IMG/VR virus record: IMGVR_UViG_3300043395_000918
Coordinates: 1 to 34,978 of that record
From: a virus
Reading direction: 5' to 3' (one strand)
Length of the DNA stretch: 34,978 bases
Position numbers and translations under genes: made by a program. Positions 7,542 to 34,978 of the stretch are shown here, in pieces. Each line of letters starts with the position of its first letter. Within the stretch, counting starts at the first letter, position 1. Below the pieces are notes generated by a model. The model worked only from the letters and a program-made list of their open reading frames with translations. It was not told the origin of the DNA and searched no databases.

Positions 7542-8104
7542 TACAGTTTTTCCTTTACTGTGTTTTTAGCGGCAATGATTACTTTTTGCCATTTGGCATC
7601 AGATTCACAAGCCTTATAAGCCAGCGTAAAAACCTTTTTCAATTCATCTTCTGTGGTTGCGGCGGCAATTTTTTCTAAATGGTCAGACATAACATTTTCA
7701 TCAATGGCTGAATCTTTTGGTGTTGCCCTACCACCATCGTCATCTTCTGGTGCAAGCCCAAGGCTTGTCAGAAGCGAATAGCGTCTTGCATAACTCAAAG
7801 CCGAACCAAACGACACAGCATCATTCTTTGGGCTAGGAATAAACAACTCACCCAAAAACAAAGACTGACCAGAAATGTGCAATAGGCTTGTATTAACTCT
7901 AATTCCATCCCTATCAGGGAATGTGTGTTGAGTTAAAGCAAAGCCATTTTTATGCAACGCATCAATGACCGCATCAATCACAGATGAAAGGTTTGCATAT
8001 TTGTTTTTGAAATGTGGATTGACCGAATTCTTGATAACTGGTCTAAAAGCCCTTTGAGCCTTTAAAAACGCTGAATAAATTTCAGGATTTGTCTCAGGGT
8101 TCAT
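7541..8104 (-). CDS. erf: ERF-family single-strand annealing protein
   Basis: 187 residues. Diagnostic ERF (PF04404) segments are present: NPHFKNKYANLSSVIDAV near 28-45, then HISGQSLFLGE, and GSALSYARRYSLLTSLGLAPEDDDGG near 98-123. The C-terminal third (about 130-187) is the variable helical tail. Annealases pair complementary single strands exposed by the partner exonuclease and support circularisation or recombination-dependent growth. Overlaps the preceding gene by 4 bp (ATGA) and the exonuclease by 1 bp. Confidence 0.92.
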   Translation of the reverse strand: MNPETNPEIYSAFLKAQRAFRPVIKNSVNPHFKNKYANLSSVIDAVIDALHKNGFALTQHTFPDRDGIRVNTSLLHISGQSLFLGELFIPSPKNDAVSFGSALSYARRYSLLTSLGLAPEDDDGGRATPKDSAIDENVMSDHLEKIAAATTEDELKKVFTLAYKACESDAKWQKVIIAAKNTVKEKL

Positions 8105-8594: not shown

Positions 8595-8642
8595 CTCAAT
8601 CTTTCTTAAAGACCCTGTGCGAAGTGCTGTGGGCATGGCGCA

Positions 8643-8671
8643 AGTATAAACCAGATTTTCATTCATGCAAA
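8643..8671 (-). promoter_or_regulatory. Leftward early promoter candidate
   Basis: On the minus strand TTTGCA (8671-8666), 17 bp and TATACT (8648-8643) form a sigma70-type promoter pointing at the ERF/exonuclease operon. The predicted start near 8636 leaves a leader of about 40 bases before ATG 8594. It is divergent from the Cro promoter and touches the 19-bp shared box at 8671-8689. Confidence 0.5.
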
Positions 8672-8725
8672 CAATACTTGACATAAATAAAGGGGCTTTA
8701 CATAAAGCCAGATTTGCATTAAGAT
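8671..8725 (+). promoter_or_regulatory. Rightward early promoter with 19-bp shared box
   Basis: TTTACA (8697-8702), 17 bp, TAAGAT (8720-8725) place the start near base 8732, the A of the Cro-like ATG, so the message may be leaderless. TTGACA (8678-8683) with CATAAA at 17 bp is an overlapping alternative. ACAATACTTGACATAAATA at 8671-8689 matches 18 of 19 bases of a box at 12921-12903 on the minus strand, and CTTKACATA is repeated at 8677-8685 and 8696-8704. These look like operator sites. Confidence 0.5.
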
Positions 8726-8731
8726 ATAAAG

Positions 8732-8905
8732 ATGAAAACCAAACAAGCAATCCAATTGGCTGGTAGCGTCATCAAATTGGCTACCCTTCTAGGCATCAGC
8801 CGTATGGCTATTTACCAATGGGGCGAAGATGTGCCCCAGGCTAGGCTGTGGCAGATGAAGGTCATTAAGCCAGAGTGGTTTGCAACTGAAACTGAATCGG
8901 TTTAA
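8732..8905 (+). CDS. Cro-like transcriptional regulator
   Basis: 57 residues, just below common ORF cut-offs. The helix-turn-helix is clear: VIKLATLLGISRMAIYQWGEDVPQARLW at about 13-40, with the Cro/P22-type ending KPEWF. The start codon is ATG 8732; there is no Shine-Dalgarno site, and the predicted transcription start coincides with the ATG. It sits at the divergent promoter region, where Cro-type proteins repress early promoters. No CI-type partner gene is recognisable anywhere in the genome, so it may time early transcription in a phage that does not form lysogens. Boxes with CTTKACATA directly upstream are its most likely targets. Confidence 0.85.
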   Translation: MKTKQAIQLAGSVIKLATLLGISRMAIYQWGEDVPQARLWQMKVIKPEWFATETESV

Positions 8906-9009
8906 GATTGTGCGAAACAGGGCTAGGTGGGGATTGATCCCCCTGCCGAAAAGGGTTACTTGTCCCCCTGCCCATGTTTCCTTCTGACAAGTGCTGACAA
9001 GGAAAATTC

Positions 9010-10312: not shown

Positions 10313-10559
10313 TGGATTAACAATTAATGAAATACATGAAAGGTTGCCGCATATTGTTAATAAAAAAAGCATTAGACGAGCCTTGTCATTTATGCCTGAT
10401 GTTTACATTGATAGATGGAAAGACCCAAAAAGGGGTCAATATCAAGCCGTTTATTGCGTAGTTATAAAACCAGAAGATTGCCCACATCCAAATTCCAGAT
10501 ATGAACAGCCGAAAACTAGATGGATCAGTCCTTACCCAACGACAGGCGCAAATTGTTGA
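10260..10559 (+). CDS. Winged-helix-like small protein
   Basis: 99 residues. Residues 8-45 (IRQVLKNEINGLTINEIHERLPHIVNKKSIRRALSFM) read as a winged helix-turn-helix, followed by the conserved-looking DVYIDRWK...YQAVYCVVIKPEDCPHP. The last 20 or so residues overlap the start of the next gene by 59 bp. Homologs I recall usually end soon after the CPHP-type motif, so this C-terminus may be an extension. Possible early regulator; no known target. Confidence 0.6.
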   Translation: MHKSHSKHIRQVLKNEINGLTINEIHERLPHIVNKKSIRRALSFMPDVYIDRWKDPKRGQYQAVYCVVIKPEDCPHPNSRYEQPKTRWISPYPTTGANC

Positions 10560-10980
10560 CTTGGTTTGTGAAGGGAAGTCTAATAAGGAAATTGCCAGAA
10601 TTGTGAAACTTGACGATACAACAATCAAAGGTCACATGACAAATATTTTGGCAATTTATAAACTGTCCAACAGAAAACAATTAATTGCTATGCGTAAATA
10701 TGGAAAACTTGATGCTAACCATAATGAAATTGTTAATGCTTTGCGTAGTTGTGGTGCTACTGTTATCAGTTTGGCTAGTGTCGGCAATGGCATACCTGAT
10801 TTATTGGTTGGTTTTAATGGGCGAACTTGTTTATTGGAAGTCAAGGATGGTAGCAAGCCACCTTCACACCAAACTCTTACTGATGCCCAACTTGATTTCA
10901 TATCAAAATGGCGTGGTTCTAGCATTGCTATCGTTAACAGCGTGGATTCTGCTATTAGAGTTTTGGGGGTTATGAAATGA
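10501..10980 (+). CDS. LuxR-type HTH fused to PD-(D/E)XK nuclease
   Basis: 159 residues. Residues 11-64 are a GerE/LuxR-type helix-turn-helix (LTQRQAQIVDLVCEGKSNKEIARI...TTIKGHMTNILAIYKLSNRKQLI). Residues 72-150 are a small PD-(D/E)XK nuclease: HNEIVNALR with E76, GIPDLLVGFNG with P99-D100, and E113-V-K115 in LLEVKDGSKPPS, close to phage VRR-NUC-type or resolvase-like endonucleases. These modules usually occur as separate genes; here one continuous frame joins them. The product could cut branched or incoming DNA at HTH-selected sites. ATG 10501 is the only start that includes the HTH. Confidence 0.7.
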   Translation: MNSRKLDGSVLTQRQAQIVDLVCEGKSNKEIARIVKLDDTTIKGHMTNILAIYKLSNRKQLIAMRKYGKLDANHNEIVNALRSCGATVISLASVGNGIPDLLVGFNGRTCLLEVKDGSKPPSHQTLTDAQLDFISKWRGSSIAIVNSVDSAIRVLGVMK

Positions 10981-12430: not shown

Positions 12431-12826
12431 TTACTGTTTAACCCAATAGCCATAAACCATTTTGTGAGTGCAATCCCAAATATCGTTTGCTACCCCATCT
12501 ATTACAGCCACAACATGATGGGCTTGTTTGGCAATTACAATTCCATTAGGCATATCTGAACATCTAGCCTTGCGACCAACAAATTTAGGTGCTGGTGTCC
12601 ATTCCCAACCATATTGCTTTAAAATATTTGAATAGACTTCTTTACAAATTCCATTTCTTGCTGATTTACTACGACCAAAATCTTTGTTTGCTTGAGCAAG
12701 TTGTTTATAGATTGTTTTGTAATCAATACCTAAAGCAATTGACATTGCCCTTGCCACGCAATCGCCAGCCGTTCCTTTGTAACCAGCATTTTTTCTGCCA
12801 CCATCATTGAATTTAAAATTTGTCAT
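12431..12826 (-). CDS. Papain-fold-like phage protein (putative cysteine protease)
   Basis: 131 residues, ATG 12826 with AAAGGA upstream. FNDGGRKNAGYKGTAGDCVARAMSIALG places C23 at the start of a helix, as in papain/C39-like folds; QAHHVVAVIDG supplies H103/H104 and D110, and DCTHKMVYGYW closes the fold. Similar proteins are frequent in phages and are annotated as cysteine protease-like; the substrate is unknown. It has its own strong promoter (TTGACA-17-TATCAT), facing the early operon, which marks it as an independent early gene, perhaps directed at a host protein. Confidence 0.7.
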   Translation of the reverse strand: MTNFKFNDGGRKNAGYKGTAGDCVARAMSIALGIDYKTIYKQLAQANKDFGRSKSARNGICKEVYSNILKQYGWEWTPAPKFVGRKARCSDMPNGIVIAKQAHHVVAVIDGVANDIWDCTHKMVYGYWVKQ

Positions 12827-12870
12827 GTCATGTCCTTTCTTGATTACTAGATTGTTTATCTAGTGTTTTA

Positions 12871-12921
12871 ATGATAAGCCATCTTTACAGGTATGTCAAG
12901 GGTATTTATGTAAAGTATTGT
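12871..12921 (-). promoter_or_regulatory. Strong leftward promoter with 19-bp shared box
   Basis: On the minus strand TTGACA (12899-12894), 17 bp, TATCAT (12876-12871): full -35 and near-consensus -10. Just upstream lies ACAATACTTTACATAAATA (12921-12903), which matches the box at 8671-8689 at 18 of 19 positions. CTTKACATA occurs twice (12915-12907 and 12900-12892). It drives the papain-like gene at 12826. Confidence 0.6.
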
Positions 12922-12960
12922 AAAGTTGGTTTATCAAATGTAGTGGGGTAGACTAGATTA

Positions 12961-13398
12961 ATGCCTTCAATCCCATCATTTACTAAGTGCGCCCAATTGG
13001 GTTGCCATGCGCCAAAGATTAAAGGGCAAGCCTACTGTGCTGATCATGGGTCTAAAAGTTTTTCGATAACTGATGACCGCAAGGCTTTTAACGCTATGTA
13101 TAACAACAAATCCTGGTCATCTATGCGTATAGGTCAATTAAGTAGGCATCCTTTATGTGCGTCATGTTTAACGCAGGGAATTGTGACCCAAGGGGTTCAT
13201 GTAGACCATTTATTTCCTTGGGCAAGCATAGGCAAGGAAGCCTTTACACGAAACATTTTGCAAACCCTTTGTGCCCCATGCCATAGCCTTAAAACAAGCA
13301 AAGAACAGAAGGATGAGATATTGCATTTCACATCTGATGGCATCAAGACTTATAGACTGCATGACTATGCTTATGTAGTTTCACAAAGTCTTGAGTAG
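12961..13398 (+). CDS. HNH endonuclease of the packaging region
   Basis: 145 residues. The N-terminus has a zinc pair (C10...C15...C26-x-x-H29). The HNH motif proper is VDHLFPWASIGKEAFTRNILQTLCAPCHSLK at about 81-111, with a further C-x-x-C at 66-69 (LCASCLTQG). HNH proteins beside terminase genes, such as HK97 gp74, assist terminase in cutting cos ends. This gene ends 188 bp before a tRNA and about 120 bp before palindromes that may be cos. No Shine-Dalgarno precedes ATG 12961; TAGACT at 12949-12954 would give a nearly leaderless message. Confidence 0.85.
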   Translation: MPSIPSFTKCAQLGCHAPKIKGQAYCADHGSKSFSITDDRKAFNAMYNNKSWSSMRIGQLSRHPLCASCLTQGIVTQGVHVDHLFPWASIGKEAFTRNILQTLCAPCHSLKTSKEQKDEILHFTSDGIKTYRLHDYAYVVSQSLE

Positions 13399-32370: not shown

Positions 32371-34978
32371 ATGGGAAACATAAAAGTTGATGTGGTTGAT
32401 CAAAACAACCTGAATGTTTCCATTCATCCCCCGACACGCAATGTCATCAATGTTCAGCCCCCTGCACAGCAAAACATAAACATCAATCGGGGGCTATATG
32501 GTCCAAGCGGAACATCTGGTTACTCTGGTTATAGTGGGTATTCTGGCGTTGGTCTGCCTGGGGCTAGTGGTTATTCTGGCTTTAGTGGCACTTCTGGTTT
32601 TTCAGGATTTAGTGGCGCAACAGGAACATCTGGCGCATCTGGTGAATCAGGCTATTCTGGATTTTCAGGTGAGTCTGGATTCTCTGGATTTTCGGGTCAA
32701 ACTGGCGCATCTGGTCTAAGCGGTTTTAGCGGATTCAGCGGTTATTCTGGATTGGATGGGCAATCTGGAATTTCTGGATTTAGTGGCTATTCAGGCTTTA
32801 GCGGTGAGTCAGGCGCAACAGGCGCAACAGGAACATCTGGATATAGCGGTGTATCTGGCTATTCAGGCTTTTCTGGCGAATCTGGATTTAGCGGTTATTC
32901 AGGTGAATCGGGTGCGTCTGGTTTTTCTGGTCTAAGCGGATTCTCTGGTCAATCTGGTTTTAGCGGTTACTCTGGCGAATCTGGCACAAGTGGCTGGTCT
33001 GGCTTTAGCGGATATTCTGGCTGGTCTGGTGAAGTAGGTATTTCTGGATTCTCTGGCGAATCTGGATATTCTGGCTTTTCTGGTCAATCTGGTTATTCAG
33101 GTTTTAGTGGTGAATCTGGTTGGTCAGGGCAATCTGGTTATAGCGGTTGGTCTGGTGAGTCTGGTCAAAGTGGTTGGTCAGGCATCAGCGGATTTTCTGG
33201 CTATTCGGGTGAAGTTGGCGCATCTGGGTTCAGCGGTTATTCGGGTGAATCAGGCGCATCTGGAATTAGTGGTTTTAGCGGCGATTCTGGTATTTCTGGC
33301 TATTCTGGACTGAATGGCGAATCGGGCATTTCTGGCTATTCTGGATTTAGTGGTGAGTCTGGAACATCGGGATATTCGGGTTCTGGTGTAAGTGGTTATT
33401 CTGGATTCTCTGGCTATTCAGGCGAACAAGGCATTTCTGGCTTTAGCGGATATTCTGGCGATTCTGGCTTTAGCGGCATCAGCGGTTACAGCGGTGATTC
33501 TGGTTTGTCTGGATTCTCTGGTCAGTCAGGTTTTAGCGGCTATTCTGGTTCTGGCATTTCGGGCTATTCAGGCGCATCAGGATTTAGCGGTTACTCTGGT
33601 CTTGGCTTGAGTGGCTATTCGGGTATTTCTGGCTATTCTGGTTACAGCGGTGCGCCTGGGGCTGGTGGTGCTATTGGCAATTGGGGTTCTTTTTGGGACA
33701 CAACAGATCAGGTTGCCACATCTGCCAATACTGCATATTCAATCACTTTGAATAGTGCAGATTCAAACAACACAGGTGTTAATGTTGTATCTGGTAGCAG
33801 AGTAACATTTTCAAATGCTGGTGTTTATAGCCTGACTTTTTCAATTCAATTCGTTAACACAGATACACAAATTCATGATGTTAATGTTTGGTTGAGAAAA
33901 AATGATAGCGGTAGCACAGGCGATATTCCTGATAGCGACACCAAATTAAGTATTCAATCCAAACATGGTAGCGTTAATGGCTATGGATTGATGACTGTTA
34001 ACTATGTGTTAAAAGTTGTTGCCAATGATTACATTGAAATGATCTGGTCAACAACTGACACACAAGTTTCAATTCAATCTGACCCTGCTGGCACATCACC
34101 AGTTTCGCCATCTGTCCCTGGTGTTATTTTTACGGCTACACAAGTAATGTATACCCAAAGCGGGTATAGCGGTGTATCTGGTTATAGCGGCTTTTCTGGT
34201 ATTTCTGGATTTAGCGGTGATTCTGGAATTTCTGGTTTTTCTGGATATTCAGGAATTGATGGCGCATCAGGAATTTCTGGTTTTTCTGGTTGGTCTGGTT
34301 GGTCTGGTGCTATTGGAAATTCGGGGATTAGCGGTTATTCTGGATTTTCTGGAATAAATGGTGTTTCTGGAATCAGCGGTTATTCTGGTTTTAGTGGTAT
34401 CTCTGGTTTTAGTGGCACAAATGGCGCATCTGGAATTTCTGGCTATTCTGGTTTTTCTGGAATCTCTGGCTATTCTGGGTTTAGTGGTATTTCTGGTTTT
34501 AGTGGTCGGTCTGGATTTTCTGGAAGTGGTGTTAGTGGCTATTCTGGTTTTAGCGGTATCTCTGGTTATTCTGGTTTTTCTGGAAGTGGTGTTTCTGGAT
34601 ATTCTGGATTTAGTGGCATCAGCGGGTATTCAGGATTTAGCGGAATTTCTGGTTATAGCGGAACAAACGGCACATCAGGAATTTCTGGATATTCAGGATT
34701 TAGTGGAATAAGCGGTTATTCTGGTTTTAGCGGGATTTCTGGTTATAGCGGAACAAATGGTGCATCAGGCATCAGCGGTTATTCTGGCTTTAGCGGAACA
34801 AATGGAACAAATGGTGCATCAGGTATTTCTGGCTATTCTGGTTTCAGCGGAACAAATGGAACAAACGGCACAAATGGCGCATCAGGTATTTCTGGCTATT
34901 CTGGTTTTTCTGGCACAAATGGAACAAACGGCACAAATGGCGCATCAGGTATTTCTGGCTATTCTGGTTTTTCTGGCA
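32371..34978 (+). CDS. Collagen-like tail fibre, N-terminal and middle part (runs off edge)
   Basis: From ATG 32371 the frame stays open to the window end and continues at base 1, for about 1028 residues in total. Residues 1-40 are an attachment segment. About 41-430 is a collagen-like arm of Gly-X-Ser triplets where X is Tyr, Phe, Ile, Glu, Gln, Ala or Trp and proline is nearly absent. Residues 431-597 are a globular domain (SFWDTTDQVATS, SSRVTFSNAGVYSLTFSIQF-type strands, ending MYTQSG), resembling a C1q/TNF jelly-roll. A second triplet arm then leads to the tip at the left edge. Short G-S-G-V-S or G-L-G-L-S breaks give kinks. Likely trimeric side fibre for host attachment. Confidence 0.92.
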   Translation, partial: MGNIKVDVVDQNNLNVSIHPPTRNVINVQPPAQQNININRGLYGPSGTSGYSGYSGYSGVGLPGASGYSGFSGTSGFSGFSGATGTSGASGESGYSGFSGESGFSGFSGQTGASGLSGFSGFSGYSGLDGQSGISGFSGYSGFSGESGATGATGTSGYSGVSGYSGFSGESGFSGYSGESGASGFSGLSGFSGQSGFSGYSGESGTSGWSGFSGYSGWSGEVGISGFSGESGYSGFSGQSGYSGFSGESGWSGQSGYSGWSGESGQSGWSGISGFSGYSGEVGASGFSGYSGESGASGISGFSGDSGISGYSGLNGESGISGYSGFSGESGTSGYSGSGVSGYSGFSGYSGEQGISGFSGYSGDSGFSGISGYSGDSGLSGFSGQSGFSGYSGSGISGYSGASGFSGYSGLGLSGYSGISGYSGYSGAPGAGGAIGNWGSFWDTTDQVATSANTAYSITLNSADSNNTGVNVVSGSRVTFSNAGVYSLTFSIQFVNTDTQIHDVNVWLRKNDSGSTGDIPDSDTKLSIQSKHGSVNGYGLMTVNYVLKVVANDYIEMIWSTTDTQVSIQSDPAGTSPVSPSVPGVIFTATQVMYTQSGYSGVSGYSGFSGISGFSGDSGISGFSGYSGIDGASGISGFSGWSGWSGAIGNSGISGYSGFSGINGVSGISGYSGFSGISGFSGTNGASGISGYSGFSGISGYSGFSGISGFSGRSGFSGSGVSGYSGFSGISGYSGFSGSGVSGYSGFSGISGYSGFSGISGYSGTNGTSGISGYSGFSGISGYSGFSGISGYSGTNGASGISGYSGFSGTNGTNGASGISGYSGFSGTNGTNGTNGASGISGYSGFSGTNGTNGTNGASGISGYSGFSG
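34852..34978 (+). repeat. Terminal direct repeat, right copy, with two exact 63-bp units
   Basis: Identical to bases 1-127. Comprises 34852-34914 and 34915-34977, each the same 63 bases coding TNG-TNG-TNG-ASG-ISG-YSG-FSG, plus the first base of a further unit. Related, shortened units precede it from about 34650. It should be removed from one end when the circle is closed. Confidence 0.9.

Follow-up and report, generated by a model that had tools for sequence, protein, structure and literature searches.

Judging from its DNA sequence, a freshwater-type phage is likely to have a Cro regulon that includes a promoter distant from the cro-like gene. The explanation that probably accounts best for the observations as a whole is that Cro-type palindromes control the two divergent early promoters (PL and PR) and the promoter of a papain-like accessory gene, and that a 19-bp box repeated in the two control regions is not the main operator. 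The window (the whole stretch of DNA analysed, 34,978 nucleotides) is positions 1-34,978 of IMGVR_UViG_3300043395_000918, a viral record in IMG/VR, and its relevant features are listed in Table 1.

Table 1. Features of the cro and papain-like control regions, with positions in the window.
Feature	Position	Strand	Remarks
Leader hairpin downstream of PL	8600..8642	-	CAUGCCC..GGGUCUUU; common to relatives
PL-like promoter of leftward early operon	8643..8671	-	TTTGCA-17-TATACT; prediction; leader downstream common to relatives
O_L, predicted Cro-type site	8644..8661	+	GTATAAACCAGATTTTCA; PL spacer/-10; core of O_R repeated; 8.4 bits, rank 8
Box A	8671..8689	+	ACAATACTTGACATAAATA; about -61 to -43 of PR; adjoins -35 of leftward promoter
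O_M, predicted Cro-type site	8685..8702	+	AAATAAAGGGGCTTTACA; over PR -35; 10.2 bits, rank 5
PR-like promoter of cro-like gene	8697..8725	+	TTTACA-17-TAAGAT; sigma-70 prediction
O_R, predicted Cro-type site	8701..8718	+	CATAAAGCCAGATTTGCA; PR spacer; 9.7 bits, rank 7
Cro-like repressor gene	8732..8905	+	57 aa; P22_Cro family (PF14549, E 3.5e-13; phrog_409)
Papain-like (unproven) accessory gene	12431..12826	-	131 aa; Cys23 and His104 invariant, Asp118 nearly so
Papain-like gene promoter	12871..12899	-	TTGACA-17-TATCAT (11/12); sigma-70 prediction
O_P1, predicted Cro-type operator	12872..12889	+	TGATAAGCCATCTTTACA; spacer/-10 of papain-like promoter; 15.9 bits, rank 1 in window
Box B	12903..12921	-	ACAATACTTTACATAAATA; about -57 to -39 of papain-like gene promoter
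O_P2, predicted Cro-type operator	12919..12936	-	TGATAAACCAACTTTACA; inverted, 16/18 identical to O_P1; 14.7 bits, rank 2
HNH endonuclease gene	12961..13398	+	divergent to papain-like gene; PF01844, E 2.3e-06

The Cro-like protein and its relatives

The cro-like gene is located directly downstream of the divergent early promoter pair PL/PR, with ERF and YqaJ recombination genes in the leftward operon (identified by Pfam and PHROGs profile searches) and a replication gene on its rightward side. Its small helix-turn-helix product matches PF14549 over residues 2-45 with 49.6 bits (cut-off 30.2), and P22 Cro (1rzs) and N15 Cro (2hin) are structural relatives found by weak matches. Scans with PHROGs and Pfam, which covered the ORFs other than the structural genes and a few tiny ones on a contig of unproven completeness, recognised neither a CI-like prophage repressor nor an integrase; nor, among the same ORFs, was there the cI gene divergent from cro that belongs to a lambda-type lysis/lysogeny switch. 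Just 3' of the cro-like gene (8916-8992, plus strand) there is a weak Rfam match to int-alpA RNA, at 28.2 bits with a gathering threshold of 35.8; 13 relatives contained no int-alpA RNA above threshold. Another ORF (10501-10980, plus strand) fuses a helix-turn-helix of the LuxR type (GerE) to a C-terminal part that resembles endonucleases (phrog_93). The contig ends (1-150 and about 32400-34978) consist of 63-bp tandem repeats and are identical over 127 bp within a repetitive region; because the end overlap sits in a repeat array, circularity of the contig is not proven.

The Cro protein of PY54, which is about 50% identical to that of the window over 44 aa, binds a 16-bp palindrome, does not bind operator half-sites and binds only one site in its own genome (PMC4488713), so that action of a Cro protein at multiple sites is not to be assumed. 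The sequence GTATAGCTGGCTATAC in the cI-cro interval of PY54 fits this published palindrome. About 110 distinct cro upstream regions of relatives were gathered, and most of them are built alike: the leftward promoter precedes a short leader hairpin (CAUGCCC...GGGUCUUU), cro has a rightward promoter, and both promoters carry a 16-18-bp palindrome in the spacer/-10. The palindrome varies with the recognition helix of Cro, being TGTTAAGCtaGCTTAACA for the helices SRAAISQWG and KRAAVYQWG and TGTAnAGTnnACTnTACA for RGA helices, in agreement with the published PY54 Cro operator (PMC4488713). The leader hairpin follows immediately after the leftward Cro-controlled promoters of the window and of many relatives (e.g. 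L206, L213, L270, L280); it consists of a CAUGCCC/CAUGCCG stem, a variable loop and GGGUCUUU or CGGUCUUU, followed by the ribosome-binding site, its stem bases co-vary (CCC/GGG to CCG/CGG), and it has no match in Rfam. The papain-like gene, too, has a hairpin in its 5' leader (12844-12864, minus strand), with a 7-bp stem and a z-score of -2.1; its sequence is unlike that of the PL leader.

Close counterparts of the window are scarce. There are no direct DNA relatives in the phage collection and no relative was found that combines both genes with an identical recognition helix; a search of genome contigs for Cro returned nothing with a first query and four distant matches with an alignment query. 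Relatives found through the terminase, at 99% and about 84% identity, were set aside, as they either end before the region, as does the 99% identical contig L115, or carry a Cro protein with the helix TKGAVSHWG and other operators. The papain-like gene, which takes its label from conserved Cys, His and Asp alone and has no Pfam or PDB profile match as a peptidase, has 19 relatives in IMG/VR that are 59-77% identical. The sequences upstream of the gene in these 19 other contigs are varied and unrelated, so the papain-like promoter of the window appears to have been acquired or changed locally. In L022-L026 a relative of the papain-like gene sits next to a different cro-like gene (helix SRQAV..W) and is transcribed away from it.

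Predicted Cro operators at PL, PR and the papain-like promoter

The palindromic operator motif TGTTAAGCtaGCTTAACA was trained only on the cro upstream regions of the ten relatives with recognition helices nearest to that of the window (SRMAIYQWG), and the whole window was scanned with it. The two best sites, O_P1 and O_P2, are both in the papain-like/HNH intergenic region. Both are palindromic sites that fit the motif of the relatives, and O_P1 sits in the spacer/-10 of the papain-like promoter, the register that operators take in relatives; O_M, O_R and O_L, at the cro control region, are weaker, and O_M is identical at 15 of 18 positions to the -64 site of the relative L213 (TGTAAAGCCCCCTTAACT). 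Thus five of the top eight sites fall in the intergenic regions next to cro and to the papain-like gene. This placement is non-random: column-permuted palindromic motifs placed at least four of their top eight sites in these two regions in 0 of 2000 cases (mean 0.09), and none of 3000 shuffles of the papain-like region reached the top score. A motif from 31 relatives gave the same two top sites at widths of 16 and 18; with a motif from the RGA-helix relatives, O_P1 and O_P2 were not the top two in the window.

The best score in the window was also reached in 2 of 40 whole-window shuffles and is nothing out of the ordinary for 35 kb of sequence, so that the argument for a regulon draws on the joint placement of the sites. 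The scores of the sites in the cro region, 8-10 bits, are within the range of matches in coding sequence (7614, 10851, 21126). The third best site in the window (7614-7631, 13.4 bits) is inside erf, where it precedes the YqaJ start by about 75 bp. A consensus of O_P1 and O_P2 was found in 12 contigs of IMG/VR, which is about chance level, none of them with a cro-like gene. Two other candidates were discarded: GGCTTTACATAAAGCC (8694-8709) as the sole operator, which overlaps O_M and O_R and as such finds no support among the relatives, and miRNA-like Rfam matches at 12868-12942, which reflect the inverted O_P1/O_P2 pair.

Distal operators are also predicted in relatives. With a motif trained on cro upstream regions alone, a match at +3.2 to +5.8 kb from cro was found in nine loci, representing few lineages, of the 16 RGA-helix loci that have at least 3.2 kb of downstream sequence. 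Most of these distal sites separate a small leftward gene from a gene running rightward, and they are often accompanied by the same leader and by AGGG-N5-CCCT palindromes resembling those between PL and PR; the papain-like promoter of the window is at +4.1 kb from cro (same strand). All six loci of the SRAAISQWG group have an extra PL-type leftward promoter at about -1.3 kb, and the distal matches in this group are inside a long ORF and were discounted as coding. Of 112 distinct cro regions, at least 26 (e.g. L086, L062, L270) have a TAGGG-N5-CCCTA palindrome some 49-52 bp before cro, in the interval that separates PL from PR, and AGGG-N5-CCCT recurs near the distal operator, often as pairs 24 bp apart, in the six loci named below.

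The 19-bp boxes and their possible roles

The first-pass annotation had noted that box A matches box B at 18 of 19 bases and that a second CTTKACATA follows 15-19 bp away, at the -35 of the cro and papain-like promoters. A search confirmed both: a single base differs between the boxes, exact copies of CTTKACATA are present at 8677 and 8696 (plus strand) and at 12915 and 12900 (minus strand), with spacings of 19 and 15 bp, and the predicted -35 elements are inside the second copies. The boxes are the sole matches to each other within three mismatches in a scan of the window and within two in the whole record. CTTKACATA itself is not enriched, with 23 occurrences in the window at no more than one mismatch and 17.4 expected. 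Whole-window dinucleotide shuffles contained a mean of 3.7 counted 19-mer pairs with at least 18 of 19 bases identical (each pair being counted about twice), so the match alone is unremarkable genome-wide; one or two such pairs are expected by chance per window-sized shuffle because every position is compared with every other, and the real window has further 18/19 pairs within coding sequence. What makes the match unusual is only that both copies are in short divergent intergenic regions: between these two regions the best 19-mer in 2000 shuffles reached 16/19 and none exceeded it, versus the 18/19 observed, and the best among all intergenic regions was 17 in 150 shuffles. The match is probably not accidental. 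Chance resemblance of two AT-rich sigma-70 -35 regions, with TTKACA constrained by the -35 consensus, is quite improbable in view of the intergenic shuffles, even if whole-window shuffles readily yield such pairs. By themselves the shuffles do not distinguish an operator from a common promoter segment.

The same annotation proposed that the box, or the CTTKACATA pairs, form the Cro operator common to both promoters of a small regulon. The regulon itself is upheld by the motif, which was derived from relatives only and placed its two best sites at the papain-like region; the box as the shared element is not. Box A scores -7.6 bits and box B -13.0 bits with the operator motif of the relatives, far below background, and the box is non-palindromic, with no convincing dyad. 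No counterpart was found in relatives; an exact search of IMG/VR found two contigs only, each with one identical copy and no sign of a common system, and the box together with the second CTTKACATA had no match there. The failure of PY54 Cro to bind operator half-sites (PMC4488713) also counts against this proposal. The box is probably not the operator of Cro, and this reading is very improbable despite the identity of the two copies and the repetition of GCTTTACTT/GCTTGACT in the cro promoter of Acinetobacter-type prophage contigs whose Cro helix has the core SRMAI. CTTTACA is also the right half of predicted operators, and the strings coincide in part with operator halves at the ends of 8685-8702 and 12919-12936, which is probably why they were linked to Cro.

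The box is best read as a promoter-upstream/-35 sequence common to the two promoters or as the site of a second regulator. At its simplest, the box may be a promoter-upstream element, a segment copied from one promoter to the other, or a second-regulator site. The box has the same orientation at both promoters, and the likeness continues, with a 4-base indel, through the next CTTKACATA, so that box and CTTKACATA form a common block of upstream sequence and -35. Such a block would be expected if a segment had been copied from PR to the accessory promoter or in the reverse direction, with no regulator of its own, and the unrelated sequences upstream of other papain-like genes fit this; the stretch would be short, however, and the spacer and -10 core are not common to both promoters, and a copy is on balance rather unlikely. 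That a phage or host regulator binds the box beside Cro is unlikely in its turn: the box is between two Cro-type sites in both control regions, and relatives have a different common element in the same place, AGGG-N5-CCCT, which may serve such a regulator and which in L269, L270, L272, L278, L280 and L285 is about 49 bp upstream of cro and again beside the distal operator, but no candidate protein is at hand and the box of the window is non-palindromic and unique to this genome.

A mechanism in which Cro palindromes are the operators may be proposed, with binding, repression, its timing and any role of the box all deduced from sequence features. The 57-aa P22-type Cro protein would most likely bind as a dimer to 16-18-bp palindromes, with a half-site near TGATAAG/CTTTACA, that are within the cores of three promoters: PL, PR and that of the papain-like gene. 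Once enough Cro had accumulated, it would repress all three promoters and possibly the divergent HNH promoter too. On this view the boxes fall within the divergent control regions of an early regulon of the Cro type. Immediately ahead of the -35, in PR as in the papain-like promoter, the box would be upstream sequence common to both and would probably raise promoter strength or mark a copied promoter segment.

Comparison with known switches

The Cro lytic repressors of the P22 type and of N15, PY54 and phiKO2 resemble the Cro-like protein of the window in belonging to the PF14549 family, in its predicted palindromic operators of similar length within the control region of cro, and in the presumption that Cro is a repressor. 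PY54 and phiKO2 Cro each have a single operator beside the prophage repressor gene (PMC4488713, PMC4997575). The window differs from these two phages in having no detected prophage repressor gene among the scanned ORFs and in having its predicted sites in promoter spacers, the best of them at a distant accessory promoter. In lambda, the OL and OR operators are in the cores of divergent early promoters, leftward for recombination and rightward for cro and replication. The window has the same divergent arrangement with predicted operators in promoter cores, but its PL and PR are packed into a single short interval next to cro, neither cI nor integrase was detected among the scanned ORFs, and there is an additional predicted operator pair 4.1 kb downstream. 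Single phage repressors with several scattered sites are exemplified by P1 C1 and by gp71 of mycobacteriophage L5; these are prophage (lysogeny) repressors with many sites, whereas the proposal here concerns a protein of the Cro type and few sites.

An ordinary genetic switch thus appears to reach a distant accessory gene. It is tentatively suggested, with somewhat less than even confidence, that in a freshwater phage group with no detectable prophage repressor a Cro-type protein serves as the general governor of early transcription, its control being spread by a repeated promoter cassette (a Cro operator, often joined by a second element upstream and by a leader hairpin) placed before accessory genes kilobases away. 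If so, Cro would not be just a local part of a switch but would set the level of far-off accessory genes, and its operators would offer a sequence-based route to accessory genes under early phage control. With the many natural variants of the helix-operator pair among the relatives, the rules of Cro-DNA recognition could then be tested.
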